DNA of 64,000 nucleotides from Akkermansiaceae bacterium (GTDB taxonomy: Bacteria; Verrucomicrobiota; Verrucomicrobiia; Verrucomicrobiales; Akkermansiaceae), in NCBI GenBank assembly GCA_029866215.1, contig JARWZU010000088.1, forward strand, positions 186,001 to 250,000, written 5' to 3'. The notes under the pieces were generated by a model. That model ran no database searches and was not told where the DNA came from. It saw nothing but the letters and a program-made list of their open reading frames with translations. Shown here one piece after another: positions 34,650 to 52,331 of this stretch; the stretch's first letter is position 1; each line of letters opens with the position of its first letter. Position numbers and translations under genes: made by a program.

Positions 34650-35513
34650 TTAAATATCATAGCTGCAATCGAGTCGCTGATTCATCTCGCTTGCAGGATT
34701 CGCTTCACTCGAGACCCCTACGACCACTGCTGGCACGCCTGCCACTGTTTTGTGAGCGGCAACGTCATTGAGCACAACGCTTCCTGCACCCACCTTGGCA
34801 CCCGTACCAATTTCCACCCTTCCAAGAATCTTGGCGCCCGCACCAATAAGCACTCCCGACCGAATGATCGGATGTCGGTCACCACCCGCTTTGCCAGTAC
34901 CCCCAAGCGTGACCTCATGCAGAATCGAGACATCGTCCTCGATGATCGCGGTCTCCCCAACGACAAATGACGTTGCATGATCGAGCAAGATGCCAGAGCC
35001 GATACGCGCAGCGGGATGGATGTCCACCGCAAACGCCTCACTGGCGAGGCTTTGAAAATACAGCGCCAACCAGCGCCGACCATCGAGCCAGAGCTGATGG
35101 GAAACCCGATAAGTCGTTAGAGCGAGAAACCCTTTAAAAAACAGCACCGGTTCGAGAGGCGAGAAACAGGCGGGATCACGCTCGAACATGGCAGCTAGAT
35201 CACGAGCCGCCTCATGGACGATATGCGAGTGCTGCTCAAAAACCCCGGTGAGTAATGGCTCCATGCTCGCACGTGGCATGTCTTCACGCGCCAGACGCCT
35301 CGCCAAACGAGCCCCCAGAGCGGCCGCGAGCGAGTCCCGCGACAAGATCACATCATGCACGAGGTGCTGCAGCGTCAACTCTTCAGCAGCGACTCGCTCC
35401 GCCTCACGCCTCAGCACCTGCCAAGTGTCTTCGAGTTCGCCAAGCCCGCCGCCGTACCGCGCCGCTAGATTCTTGCTCGCCGTGTGAGTTCCGATATGGT
35501 CTGATTCGTTCAT
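34650..35513 (-). CDS. cysE: Serine O-acetyltransferase
   Basis: Acetylates serine to O-acetylserine, the first step of cysteine synthesis. From the ATG at 35513 (MNESDHIGTH) it has 287 residues, close to E. coli CysE (273). The N-terminal helical domain ends at FFKGFLALTTYRVSHQLW. The left-handed beta-helix contains DIHPAARIGSGILLDHATS, VSILHEVTLGGTGKAGGDRHP and GAGAKILGRVEIGTGAKVGAGSVVL. Frames extending upstream to 35696 lie antisense to the Rrf2 gene and are not CysE-like. Its start codon overlaps that of the divergent Rrf2 gene. Confidence 0.94.
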   Translation of the reverse strand: MNESDHIGTHTASKNLAARYGGGLGELEDTWQVLRREAERVAAEELTLQHLVHDVILSRDSLAAALGARLARRLAREDMPRASMEPLLTGVFEQHSHIVHEAARDLAAMFERDPACFSPLEPVLFFKGFLALTTYRVSHQLWLDGRRWLALYFQSLASEAFAVDIHPAARIGSGILLDHATSFVVGETAIIEDDVSILHEVTLGGTGKAGGDRHPIIRSGVLIGAGAKILGRVEIGTGAKVGAGSVVLNDVAAHKTVAGVPAVVVGVSSEANPASEMNQRLDCSYDI

Positions 35514-35925
35514 GAAGATTTCACAGAAATTGGAATACGCCTGCCGGGCGCTGGCCCAACTGGCGAAATACCATGACGGGCGAACTCTTACACGGCTTGA
35601 GGACCTAGCGCAACGCGAAGCAGTGTCTGCGAACTTTCTTGTGCAAATCCTCAATGACCTCAGGCGAGCCGGCCTCATCGAGAGCCGCCGAGGCAAGGCC
35701 GGCGGTTACCTGCTCGCCCGCCGCGCAGACCAAATCTCGCTTCGCCAAGTCGTCGAGGCAGTGGATCCCTCGCTGCTGCAATGCTCGGTTACCCGCGATG
35801 GTGACTCAGGCGCTGCCGTTCGATTGGCATGGGAACAAGTCTCTGACAGCCTCCAAAACTCCCTAGGCAAAATCACCCTGGACCATCTCGCCACCAAACA
35901 GGGCGACCCAATGTTCTACATTTGA
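35512..35925 (+). CDS. Rrf2-family transcription regulator (CymR-like)
   Basis: A 137-residue winged-helix repressor. The N-terminus MKISQKLEYACRALAQLAKY and the motif REAVSANFLVQILNDLRRAGLIESRRGKAGGYLLAR are typical of Rrf2 proteins. The three cluster-binding cysteines of IscR are absent (only one Cys in LLQCSV), which points to the CymR type, known in Firmicutes to repress cysteine genes through the CysK-O-acetylserine complex. Position head-to-head with cysE supports such a role, by inference. The ATG shares two bases with the cysE start codon. Confidence 0.88.
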   Translation: MKISQKLEYACRALAQLAKYHDGRTLTRLEDLAQREAVSANFLVQILNDLRRAGLIESRRGKAGGYLLARRADQISLRQVVEAVDPSLLQCSVTRDGDSGAAVRLAWEQVSDSLQNSLGKITLDHLATKQGDPMFYI

Positions 35926-37035: not shown

Positions 37036-37590
37036 TCAAGATTCCTTCTGCAGTCGAGCCTGAAGTTCCGGCCACTGCGCACGACCCACGATGTAGCCCA
37101 CGCATCCATCCTTGCCGCACAAACAGGGATGATCTTCGTAGCAATCCACATCGAATCCATAGTCAAACGTCAACTCCTCGCCCACCTCAATGTCAGTGGT
37201 CGAGTGGATGAAAATTTTCTTTCCATGAATCCACGCCTCACAGTTCGGACTGCATGAATGGTTGATCAGTCGAGCGGTGTTCCAAGGGACATTGCCGTCG
37301 ATGTCATACTTTTTCGACAAGGTGAAAATATAGACTGCAGCGTCCCCGGTCTCCAATGACTTCTCATGCTGTGAAATTCCGCGCGACTCGCTTTCTGTCT
37401 TGTCGATCAACTCGCCGACGTACTCGATAATCTTCGTTTCCTTCGGAATAAAACGGGTCGCGTAAACCCCGCGGCCATGAATCGCAGATCCTCGGACCTC
37501 ACAATACGGACTTTGGCTGCGCTCCCATAGAGCGAGCATCTTGCGGTGTAAGATTTTTTCCGCCGATTCGACCTTCTTTTTTACTGCCAT
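37036..37590 (-). CDS. SET-domain protein (lysine methyltransferase-like)
   Basis: From the ATG at 37590 (MAVKKKVES) it has 184 residues. The SET fold is complete: the SAM-binding AIHGRGVYATRFIPKETKIIEYVGE start, the pseudoknot ARLINHSCSPNCEAW, GEELTFDYGFD, and a post-SET-like cysteine cluster (CLCGKDGCVGYI). Such bacterial proteins are close to eukaryotic histone methyltransferases; known bacterial examples modify their own histone-like or ribosomal proteins. A possible substrate in this window is the Lys-rich DUF2934 protein at 23.7 kb, but that is speculation. The upstream secreted-protein gene ends 10 bp before it. Confidence 0.9.
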   Translation of the reverse strand: MAVKKKVESAEKILHRKMLALWERSQSPYCEVRGSAIHGRGVYATRFIPKETKIIEYVGELIDKTESESRGISQHEKSLETGDAAVYIFTLSKKYDIDGNVPWNTARLINHSCSPNCEAWIHGKKIFIHSTTDIEVGEELTFDYGFDVDCYEDHPCLCGKDGCVGYIVGRAQWPELQARLQKES

Positions 37591-37600
37591 GGTGGGGATC

Positions 37601-38272
37601 CTATCGAGATTCGCGCTTTTGCAAAACAGGAAGCTGGAGGTCATTCGGCAAGGTTCCGAACAAGCTCCGCAAATCGTTCACGGTTAGACCCGCGCCGTCA
37701 ATGAAAGTCCAGTCGTTCTTACCCTTATCTGAAATGGCCACCTGAAAGCCCGTGCTGTCGATCACCAGCGGCTTCGGATCCCCCGGCCTAATGATGCGGA
37801 ACTTGGTCTCCGTCGGAATCAACACCAACCATTTGGTAAACACCAAGCTCTCCACTTCTCCGCCATTCACTCGATCGACCCTTTTACCCGGCCCAACTTC
37901 GTATGACCTCGGCTGTCCCTGCGGCTTAAACGAAATCATGCTCACTCCTTGCTGCAGCATCTGACGCGACACGCCAGCAAGTTGTTTTTCGAGTTCCTTC
38001 ATTCCACCCATTCGGTTTGCAGTGCGCTCTTTCCAAAGCGGATTCATCCGGTCAACCGCAACTTGGTACCGACCCATCACGACCTCATCTCCGAGCTTGC
38101 TCACCGCCGCGACGGCAGATGCTACGACCTCCGAAGGGGCCACAGACGCAGGAGATTCTTTCTTCGGAATCGCCGGGAGCGGCGCCAAAGGCGGAGGATT
38201 GCCTGAGGCCAATGGGGAGAAACCCACAACCAAAGTTGCAGCAAGCAAAGGATGGAAAAGCAACGATTTCAC
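37601..38272 (-). CDS. Secreted protein of unknown function
   Basis: I start it at the GTG at 38272, which precedes a signal peptide (VKSLLFHPLLAATLVVGFSPLASG); the frame is open to 38341. The mature part has a Pro/Ala-rich start, a helical stretch (DRMNPLWKERTANRMGGMKELEKQ) and a beta-rich C-terminal half containing WLVLIPTETKFRII and WTFIDGAG. These last features recall proteins with a small NTF2-like or beta-sandwich fold, but I cannot name a family. The SET-domain gene follows after 10 bp. Confidence 0.72.
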   Translation of the reverse strand: MKSLLFHPLLAATLVVGFSPLASGNPPPLAPLPAIPKKESPASVAPSEVVASAVAAVSKLGDEVVMGRYQVAVDRMNPLWKERTANRMGGMKELEKQLAGVSRQMLQQGVSMISFKPQGQPRSYEVGPGKRVDRVNGGEVESLVFTKWLVLIPTETKFRIIRPGDPKPLVIDSTGFQVAISDKGKNDWTFIDGAGLTVNDLRSLFGTLPNDLQLPVLQKRESR

Positions 38273-49873: not shown

Positions 49874-51604
49874 TCAGTTCTCCAGCAACTGTTTTAGGCG
49901 TAGATCACCGGCGGCGGGGCGGATGGCGCGAGCGGGGCCGAGGAACTGGCGGCGGAGGTCAATGAAAGGGCGTGCCCTCTGTTCAGTCAGGTGATCGTAA
50001 TTCGGATTGAGCGCGGGCATGTATTTCGTCGCGACATTGGCATCCAGCCAGTCGTTGAGTTCCTTGAAGAGCTGCCGTGTTTTTTCCGGCATCGATTCGG
50101 CGAGGTTTTGTTTTTCGTAGGGATCGTTCTTGAGGTCGTGCAGCCAAAGGCGGCCGTTCCAATCGAAGATCAGTTTGAAATCGCCCTTGCGGATGGCGGA
50201 GTGGGGAGTGAGTGGGAAACCGTCGTCTGGGTGCAGTGGCGCGACGTTGAACGGATAGTGCCAGATGAAGGTGTCGCGAACGTAAGCCTTGGTCTTGTTC
50301 GATGGGTCCTTGAAGAGGGAAACGAGGCTGTGGCCGTCGATCTTGTGCTTGGCACGAAGCGTCTCCGGATCGATGCCGCCGGCCTGGACGAGGGTGGGAA
50401 ACAGGTCGCTGGCAGCTACGGGGACATCTGACCAATTTCCGGCGGGAATCGCCGCGGGCCAGCGGAGAATCAGCGGGACGCGGATGCCGCCCTCGAACAT
50501 CATCGCCTTGCCGCCCTTGAAGGGGGCGTTGCTGGTGGTGGGAGTGTCGCCTTTTTGGGTGAGGTAGGAGACGCCGCCGTTGTCGCTCATGAAGATGACA
50601 AGGGTGTTTTCTGTTAAGTTAAGTTCATCGAGCGTGGCCATCAGGCGGCCGACGGATTGGTCGAGGCTGCGGACCATTCCGGCGTATGTCGCATCGGTGT
50701 GGCCGTTCCAGCCTTTGGTCGGTTTGTTTTTAAAGTGGTCGATGTCCTGTTGCTTGGCCTGGAAGGGCGAGTGGACTGCGAGTTGGCAGAAATAGAGCAG
50801 GAATGGCTGGTCCGGCCGAGTTTTGTGGTGGGAGCGGATGAAGCGGTCGGCCTGGGTGGTGAGGTGGTCGGTCAGATAATCCTCAGCGGTGGCTTCCCCG
50901 GATTTTCCCCACAGCAGTTCCTTCTGCGGCATGGTGGGGTCGTTCTTTGTCTTGCGGTCCCAGAGCGGCTGCCACTTGAAGAATGGCGAGCCGCCGGCAT
51001 CGAAGTAGGCGATTTCCTCAAATCCCTGGTCGCGAGGCTGATAGCCTTCCGCGCCATGGCCGCCGACGTGCCACTTGCCGATGAATGCCGAGCGGTGGCT
51101 TGTCAGGGCCTCGGCAAAGGTGAGTTCGTCCCGGCCTTGGTCGGTCTGGCGGCCAGCCGGGAGGGCGAGCAGGGTGCTGCCGTTGAGCAGGGCTTGCGGG
51201 GTCTTGATCGGGTCGCCCCAGTAGCGGGCATCGAGCGGGAGATAGCTGGGGGGCGCTTGCTGATTGAGAGCGTAGAAGGAGAGAGCGGTGTGCGGAGTGG
51301 CAGTGGTGACGCCGAGTGAGGGTGCGTTTTTCCCGGTGAGCAGTGACGCGCGGGTGGGCGAGCAAAGCTGATAGGCATAGGCCTGTGAGAATGCCAGACC
51401 GCTGGCGGCGAGGCGGTCAAGGTTAGGAGTTTCATAAAACATCCTGTCCTTGCCCTCGCCGGTGGCTTTTTCCGCGAATGCGTTCACATCGGTGTAGCCG
51501 AGATCGTCGGCGAGAATGAACAGGATGTTCGGCGGCTTGGCGGCGTGCGCGCTGGTGATGAGCAGCAGCGGCAGCAGCGCGCAAAGGCGGGGGAATGGTT
51601 TCAT
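49874..51604 (-). CDS. Secreted type I sulfatase
   Basis: Hydrolyses a sulfate ester, probably on a polysaccharide, in the periplasm or outside. Signal peptide (LCALLPLLLITSAHAA), then the sulfatase fold: NILFILADDLGYTD metal ligands, the modification motif CSPTRASLLTG (Cys81, converted to formylglycine in the family), FIGKWHVGG, and IFMSDNGG with the second metal-binding part. 576 residues is normal. A C-terminal subdomain contains RKGDFKLIFDW and LWLHDLKNDPYEKQNLAE. A maturase was not seen in the window. The fucP-type remnant lies 30 bp upstream, which suggests they once formed an operon. Confidence 0.93.
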   Translation of the reverse strand: MKPFPRLCALLPLLLITSAHAAKPPNILFILADDLGYTDVNAFAEKATGEGKDRMFYETPNLDRLAASGLAFSQAYAYQLCSPTRASLLTGKNAPSLGVTTATPHTALSFYALNQQAPPSYLPLDARYWGDPIKTPQALLNGSTLLALPAGRQTDQGRDELTFAEALTSHRSAFIGKWHVGGHGAEGYQPRDQGFEEIAYFDAGGSPFFKWQPLWDRKTKNDPTMPQKELLWGKSGEATAEDYLTDHLTTQADRFIRSHHKTRPDQPFLLYFCQLAVHSPFQAKQQDIDHFKNKPTKGWNGHTDATYAGMVRSLDQSVGRLMATLDELNLTENTLVIFMSDNGGVSYLTQKGDTPTTSNAPFKGGKAMMFEGGIRVPLILRWPAAIPAGNWSDVPVAASDLFPTLVQAGGIDPETLRAKHKIDGHSLVSLFKDPSNKTKAYVRDTFIWHYPFNVAPLHPDDGFPLTPHSAIRKGDFKLIFDWNGRLWLHDLKNDPYEKQNLAESMPEKTRQLFKELNDWLDANVATKYMPALNPNYDHLTEQRARPFIDLRRQFLGPARAIRPAAGDLRLKQLLEN

Positions 51605-51634: not shown

Positions 51635-52066
51635 TCAATGGCCCCTTGTGACACGCACGTCAAGTACACCTTCCGAACCGCTGAGTTTGCTCCAGAAGAG
51701 TCCGTAGCCGGCGACCCAGACGAAGCAGACGAGCGGGACGATGAATCCGGCGGACATGCCGTCCGTGCTGGTGTCGGCGATGTGGCCCATCAGCTTGGGC
51801 ATGATTGCACCGCCCATGATGGCCATGACGATGAAGGAGGAGGCGTTCTTCGCGCGGCTACCGAGGCCGTGGATACCGAGCGAGAAGATCGTGGGAAACA
51901 TGATGGACATGAAGAAGTAGCTGAGGAACAGCGCGATTGCGGAGGCCCAACCGAGTTTCAGAAGAACCAACAGGCTGCAAACGGCGGCGGCGATGGCGAA
52001 GGTGCCGAGCACTTTGTGAGCGGGGAATTTCTTCAGCAATCCGGCGCCGATGAAGCGCCACTCAAT
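51635..52066 (-). pseudogene. 5'-truncated FucP-type sugar:H+ symporter
   Basis: The frame codes the C-terminal third of an L-fucose permease-like MFS protein: WRFIGAGLLKKFPAHKVL, FFMSIMFPTIFSLGIHGLG and SSFIVMAIMGGAIMPKLMGH match E. coli FucP closely. Upstream of about 52066 the frame turns into unrelated Arg/Ser/His-rich sequence and no start with transporter-like sequence follows, so roughly 290 N-terminal residues are missing. It cannot transport as it stands. The 265 bp between it and the sensor kinase gene hold no gene I can support. Confidence 0.85.
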
Positions 52067-52331
52067 GGAAGCCGACCGTCGGTGATGGCGCGACCATCTG
52101 CCACTACAGCGATCTAACTGCCTGCACAGTTGCGCGGTCCTGCACCGTCATCTTGATGACCGCCCGACCAGAGACCTAAATGACTAAAATGCTGATTCGC
52201 ATCGAAGGACAAACCATTTAGCGACCGCAGGACGCACTCTTTTCACTAGGCTAATGAAGCCAGAAACCAACGTTCGGAGAACGATTTGAATTTGTCCGGG
52301 TGCGCGGTTAGGCTGCGGAGCTTACTATATC

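Follow-up and report, generated by a model that had tools for sequence, protein, structure and literature searches.

A divergent cysE/rrf2 gene pair with overlapping start codons and putative embedded promoters in the Akkermansiaceae

In the genome of an Akkermansiaceae bacterium, the serine O-acetyltransferase gene cysE and a gene for a CymR-like regulator of the Rrf2 family are read in opposite directions from a single CATG, which holds both start codons. The CAT of the cysE start and the ATG of the rrf2 start have two bases in common (35512-35513 of the window, that is, of the whole 64,000-nucleotide stretch of DNA analysed); the overlap on opposite strands had been described in the earlier note, and its coordinates can be read off directly (CAT 35511-35513, ATG 35512-35514). 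The arrangement is old and retained in a clade of genera, with many related freshwater bacteria keeping it. It is probably best understood as a compacted divergent regulator-target pair with facing promoters embedded in the two genes and with CysK-assisted, CymR-like control of cysE. In this pair, a CymR-like regulator is transcribed away from its likely target gene, and compaction has gone as far as shared start codons, with apparently embedded promoters. The three features concerned are as follows.

34650..35513, minus strand: cysE, serine O-acetyltransferase, 287 aa (SATase_N and hexapeptide domains; TIGR01172; PDB matches)
35512..35925, plus strand: rrf2, CymR-like Rrf2-family regulator, 137 aa (Pfam Rrf2; TIGR00738; CymR fold)
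35511..35514, strand not applicable: CATG, start of cysE (minus) and of rrf2 (plus), common bases 35512-35513 (from the sequence and alignments of relatives)

The cysE product contains the Pfam SATase_N domain (100.6 bits) followed by a hexapeptide domain, exceeds the curated cut-off of TIGR01172 (218 versus 210.65 bits) and matches serine acetyltransferases in the PDB down to E 5e-78. The rrf2 product scores 109.7 bits against Pfam Rrf2 (PF02082; cut-off 30) and 109 bits against TIGR00738 (curated cut-off 73.3). In the source genome (3.0 Mb in 88 contigs), cysE is the sole full serine acetyltransferase gene found, cysK lies on a different contig and a second Rrf2 gene is present elsewhere. 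By rough gene calling, the other divergent gaps in the window span 33 to 526 nt, and the cysE/rrf2 pair is thus an outlier. By the same gene calling, another divergent pair, 49874-51604 (minus) and 51638-52117 (plus), is also close, at 33 nt.

The window alone gives no proof of the cysE start: the frame continues upstream through rrf2, with further candidate starts at -141, -165 and -183, and a downstream GTG is found at codon 33, within the domain. The assignment is settled by relatives. Counting ATG, GTG and TTG as possible starts, the ATG in CATG is the sole candidate from the in-frame stop to codon 30 in 7 of the 76 non-identical loci with the exact overlap, and 25 of these 76 have no alternative within codons 2-30. 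For rrf2, no second start occurs within codons 2-12 in 75 of 129 loci, and the other 54 have a TTG at codon 7, inside the fold (one of them with a second TTG); an in-frame upstream start ahead of a stop is present in 73 of the 129 loci and absent from 56. The N-terminal sequence M-[KR]-[IV]-S is near-invariant, with V in place of M at GTG starts, and residue 3 is the first of the Pfam domain. With both frames fixed, the exact overlap requires just a C before the rrf2 ATG. Within the clade holding the exact loci, 77 of the 84 rows have C at this base and 7 have T, and most of the neighbouring linker bases vary; the C is thus conserved and the overlap is not due to chance. Nor is it an assembly artefact, because isolate records of Haloferula rosea (L086) and Haloferula luteola (L099) carry it. 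Collectively, these observations uphold the earlier claims that both N-termini fit their families and that no later start is credible.

The same overlap was sought in relatives and found to be common. We took in 170 loci with a strong cysE, leaving out three weak matches (L002-L004), and a divergent rrf2 was found within the sequence around cysE in 150 of them, 84 with the exact overlap. After identical rrf2 genes, rrf2 genes cut by contig ends and one locus with no ATG within 40 nt (L172) were dropped, 129 loci remained, 76 of which are exact. The six search patterns included the CysE N-terminus, with a possible bias towards exact loci; a sample of family genomes therefore provides the fairer figure. 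Of its 97 genomes, 92 were examined (G004 and G080 gave no match; G017, G027 and G054 were left out). The pair is present in 79 of the 92 (78 plus G029), with exact overlap in 23, offsets of 4 nt in 15, 8-10 nt in 18 and 18-23 nt in 21, whereas one pair has no near ATG and one has a 110-nt gap (G029). Exact overlap is therefore found in 23 of the 92 family genomes with an examined cysE, and 54 more have starts within 23 nt of each other; the majority of family genomes that carry the pair do without the exact overlap, at offsets of 4-23 nt, and it is thus not essential. By genus, it is present in 11 of 11 genomes of the source genus, 10 of 10 of genus g7 and 2 of 10 of g11. None of the 10 genomes examined from g3 (presumed to be Akkermansia, which is a guess) has the pair, and a few others also lack it. 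In another family of the same order, two genomes have the pair with roughly 140 and 250 nt between the starts (counted by hand). On a FastTree tree of 128 rows (leaving out L171, with its cut cysE), the exact state needs two changes, either a gain and a loss or two gains, and a subclade adjoining two exact rows is offset by 9 nt.

The graded spacing, with family offsets of 0, 4, 8-10 and 18-23 nt, a rare 110-nt gap and wider gaps in order-mates, is in line with plain genome compaction, in which a divergent pair simply shrank until the starts met, saving space without any antisense control. The 9-nt subclade points the same way, as does the scarcity of Shine-Dalgarno (SD) sites: of the window's 51 gene starts, as roughly called, 3 have an SD-like 4-mer at -18 to -5, compared with 11% of random 14-mers, and PMC10783764 counts Akkermansia muciniphila and a Verrucomicrobia bacterium as SD-scarce. 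With SD sites absent, less must fit upstream of each start, and this scarcity makes the overlap affordable. On the other side, the exact overlap has been retained in 76 non-identical loci, across which the CysE linkers gain and lose codons, and conserved elements are found in both genes (below). We give plain compaction about an even chance of being the whole explanation. The overlap as such most likely arose by compaction and is tolerated in lineages that do not depend on an SD site.

The earlier note had reasoned that each promoter and leader must lie in the other gene unless the mRNAs are leaderless. We asked whether silent codons at the 76 exact loci are chosen more uniformly than expected from the codon usage of the gene itself, in blocks of 16 codons and with significance from 2000 permutations of columns, which do not model shared ancestry. 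The strongest blocks are codons 21-36 in rrf2 and codons 2-17 in cysE (1/2000 permutations each), in agreement with that reasoning. The elements proposed within and around them are listed below.

35572..35619, minus strand: rrf2 codons 21-36, putative cysE promoter region (strongest silent-site block; codon counts)
35608..35613, minus strand: putative cysE -35 element TTGCGC (rrf2 codon 34 CAA in 75/75 Q, codon 33 GCG in 74/76)
35584..35592, minus strand: putative cysE extended -10 element TGTAAGAGT (18-bp spacer, counted to the hexamer AAGAGT; weak TATAAT match)
near 35575-35577, minus strand: predicted cysE start site (rrf2 codon 22 GAC in 72/73)
35514..35577, minus strand: predicted cysE leader of about 64 nt, antisense to rrf2 codons 1-22 (from the -10 position)
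35463..35510, plus strand: cysE codons 2-17, putative rrf2 promoter region (strongest silent-site block)
35473..35478, plus strand: putative rrf2 -35 element TTGCTC (counts for cysE codons 13 and 14)
35495..35505, plus strand: putative rrf2 -10 element, either TATGGT (35495-35500) or extended TGGTCTGAT (35497-35505) (conserved bases)

In addition to the rrf2 codons counted above, CTT26 (58/65), ACA27 (61/76) and GAA36 (75/76) are highly uniform among the exact loci. On the cysE side, codon 13 is AGC in 57 and codon 14 AAG in 37 of the 76 loci (runner-up codons 4 and 2). The bases upstream of the rrf2 ATG are conserved at T-17 (65/76), T-15, G-14 and T-12 (73/76 each), giving the rrf2-strand pattern T-N-T-G-N-T at -17 to -12, with TTGCTC farther upstream in the window; depending on which -10 is chosen, the rrf2 start site would fall 5 nt before the ATG or at it. 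The residue at cysE codon 6 is Q in 43 and H in 29 of the 76 loci, and its first two bases are each conserved in 73; at codon 5, nine different residues occur, with the middle A conserved in 73. In this part of the linker, the DNA is thus conserved and the protein varies. One relative with a 9-nt offset (L019) reads TGTTATACT, near an extended -10, at the place of TGTAAGAGT. Overall, the DNA at the 5' end of each gene is conserved beyond the needs of the protein, and the silent sites speak for a cysE promoter inside rrf2 that yields a leader and for an rrf2 promoter inside cysE that yields a leaderless or near-leaderless mRNA.

The putative cysE -10 (AAGAGT) and both readings of the rrf2 -10 depart from consensus at some bases, and a scan for consensus sigma-70 promoters called none at the junction. 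In favour of the promoter assignment, three rrf2 genes that are separated from cysE by real gaps (L174, L175 and L193) lack the cysE-promoter elements. Among the 18 loci with an 8-10-nt offset, the rrf2 block is significant (27/2000) and the cysE block is not (435/2000). No rrf2 block is significant in the 4-nt (147/2000) or 18-23-nt (405/2000) groups, which are small and diverse, and the cysE block is not significant in any group outside the exact one, although promoters must be housed in these genes too; the absence of a significant block counts against a universal promoter placement. Since the conserved elements show promoter constraint and not antisense regulation, they disfavour plain compaction only weakly.

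If the conserved stretches hold the neighbour's promoter, the two promoters would face each other. Transcription of cysE would start at about 35576, giving a leader of some 64 nt antisense to rrf2 codons 1-22, and rrf2 would be transcribed from 0-5 nt before its ATG as a leaderless or near-leaderless mRNA. The first 65-70 nt of one mRNA would then be complementary to those of the other, and mutual interference between the genes, by transcription or by antisense RNA, is a possible by-product. A stronger proposal is that expression of cysE and of its repressor is mutually exclusive, through the overlap of the mRNA 5' ends or through collision of polymerases, and forms a switch-like double-negative loop. 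The arrangement resembles the excludons and overlapping 5'UTR pairs of Listeria and other bacteria in its divergent genes, its predicted overlap of transcript 5' ends, here covering the rrf2 start, and its one likely repressor; PMC4179725 describes excludons as divergent gene pairs whose functions are opposed or related. Unlike in excludons, whose antisense RNAs are long, the overlap deduced here from promoter positions is 65-70 nt and its antisense part would be an ordinary leader of about 64 nt, in which no conserved structure was found; related genera with other offsets still have the pair. We consider this proposal unlikely. More doubtful still is its fullest form, a cysteine switch built on the one CATG, in which formerly intergenic promoter DNA has become part of the CysE linker, each gene encodes its neighbour's promoter, rrf2 is leaderless, antisense pairing over 65-70 nt is obligate and cysE and a CysK-assisted repressor are mutually exclusive.

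Searches for further signals in this region gave the following. Folding the cysE leaders of 26 loci with the exact overlap gives -2.6 kcal/mol and no real covariation, and the leader has no Rfam match up to E 1. A leader ORF was considered and rejected: in 47 of the 76 loci, the antisense of rrf2 codon 21, where the leader is predicted to begin, reads ATG, but the stops of this frame are not conserved, with 17 at -7 and the others scattered from -61 to +287. No operator was found. The palindrome ATTTCNNNGAAAT at rrf2 nt 7-19 shows silent bias and has 14 sites in its own genome, compared with 1 for a reversed control. It is complete in just 28 of the 76 loci, however, and of 10 of the 14 sites that were read, the junction's included, 9 are inside genes, with one in an apparent cysD; it was rejected as an operator candidate, and its silent bias may instead serve the A/T-rich start region of cysE. 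Comparison by eye of the regions upstream of cysK in 30 genomes revealed no shared block. In several of these (L209, L211-L213 and others), the upstream gene ends in YECGLH...F-Q-I, which we take to be typical of the PAPS reductase CysH, suggesting a cysH-cysK operon.

The regulator is CymR-like by its fold and its C-terminal tail. The best fold match of its AlphaFold model (39 sequences; mean pLDDT 87) is Bacillus subtilis CymR (2y75), which ranks first by both Foldseek (E 3.6e-11) and VIA (Z 18.4, rmsd 1.8, 127 aligned), with IscR near (Z about 16). The CymR profile NF047409 aligns over 1-139 of its 139 positions, that is, to the last one; the score of 74 bits is, however, 121 bits short of the curated cut-off of 195, and the protein cannot be filed as a CymR. 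The tail is the following feature.

35911..35922, plus strand: MFYI tail at the Rrf2 C-terminus, a predicted CysK-docking element (invariant M and I; disordered in the model)

Residues 131-137 are disordered in the model, the tail having a pLDDT below 50. The pattern M-aromatic-[YFH]-I is nonetheless present throughout the relatives, with M at -4, an aromatic residue at -3 and I at -1 in 129 of 129, unlike the variable residues at -6 to -10; a C-terminal Ile in CysE is found in just 67 of the 129. The tail also occurs in Rrf2 from the order-mates and from one member of the class, and is missing from the second Rrf2 of the source genome. A cysK gene was found in 59 of 60 genomes searched and adjoins the pair in five family genomes (G007, G016, G031, G040 and G046); in L134, which was read in detail, cysK is followed by a convergent rrf2 and then cysE in one cluster.

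This combination recalls the CymR-CysK system of Bacillus subtilis and Staphylococcus aureus, with which the protein shares the Rrf2 fold, the lack of an iron-sulphur Cys triad and an Ile-ending tail. CymR is reported to have a C-terminal Ile motif like other CysK partners (PMC12895370) and to act with CysK in response to O-acetylserine (PMC3828012). It differs from that system in scoring under the CymR cut-off, in being divergent to cysE with overlapping start codons and in belonging to a different phylum. By analogy with the family, when cysteine is ample and O-acetylserine low, the active site of CysK would take the Rrf2 tail and strengthen DNA binding, and the strengthened Rrf2 would lower transcription of cysE and probably of rrf2; O-acetylserine would compete with the tail and relieve repression. 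The earlier view of Rrf2 as the cysteine regulator thus stands in so far as the protein is likely part of cysteine control, given its CymR-like fold, its tail and the adjacency of cysK in some genera; that it represses cysE, that antisense transcription is regulatory and that the tie between the two genes is obligate are conjectural. In other words, the structural half of the earlier reading holds up well and the regulatory half is plausible.

Two further alternatives are improbable. One is that the protein is an iron-sulphur regulator of the IscR type rather than a cysteine regulator. IscR is a close match in fold and sequence, and its model scores 72.4 bits, near the 74 of CymR; this score misses the TIGR02010 cut-off of 207.55, and the M-aromatic-[YFH]-I tail and the linkage to cysE and cysK speak against the assignment. 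The three cluster-ligand Cys residues of IscR are near positions 92-104, and none of the 129 relatives has three Cys within residues 85-115 (none in 86, one in 42 and two in 1). This alternative is very unlikely. The least probable of all is a misplaced start, with CysE beginning at a later non-standard codon, such as one of the CTG or ATT type, and a short intergenic region left between the genes: residues 1-25 are a variable linker ahead of the SATase_N domain and the start counts are confined to ATG, GTG and TTG, but the C that creates the cysE ATG is conserved in 77 of 84 clade rows, 7 of the 76 loci have no other ATG, GTG or TTG, and the subclade with a 9-nt offset has T for this C in 7 of 8 rows, with an ATG 9 nt further on.

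As a head-to-head overlap of two protein genes, the pair belongs to the rarest class of gene overlaps. Divergent overlaps, counted at 331 against 1890 convergent and 12737 codirectional ones, are strongly under-represented in PMC2174442; PMC2478687 puts them at 1% and judges all long ones (> 60 bp) to be misannotations. Their rarity reflects the need to accommodate both sets of start signals in shared DNA. The cysE/rrf2 overlap differs from such cases in being retained across many genera, with both starts backed by relatives. Titles and abstracts on bacterial divergent overlapping start codons, on Rrf2 genes divergent to cysE and on transcription starts of Akkermansia cysE or cysteine genes contain no description of the arrangement. 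Its graded offsets (0, 4, 8-10, 18-23, 110 nt and more) over many genera provide a natural case for testing how such signals are made to fit, and the solution on view would be SD-free starts combined with promoters written in silent codon positions. The predicted docking would also extend CymR-like control of cysteine synthesis through CysK to the Verrucomicrobiota, whose regulators of this pathway are, to our knowledge, little known.

Genus g3, again under the assumption that it is Akkermansia, encodes a different Rrf2 lineage with several Cys residues (L232-L238); in three of the genomes, in which the positions were compared (G028, G038 and G047), a cysK-type gene lies no more than about 1.5 kb away. 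Its members end in YGAGI, RDGI, CNGI or CDGI, resembling the CysE tail that binds CysK. Two Rrf2 lineages may use CysK-docking tails. Elsewhere in the window, the open frame 37036-37644 (minus strand) resembles, by eye, a SET-domain protein, which is unusual in bacteria.
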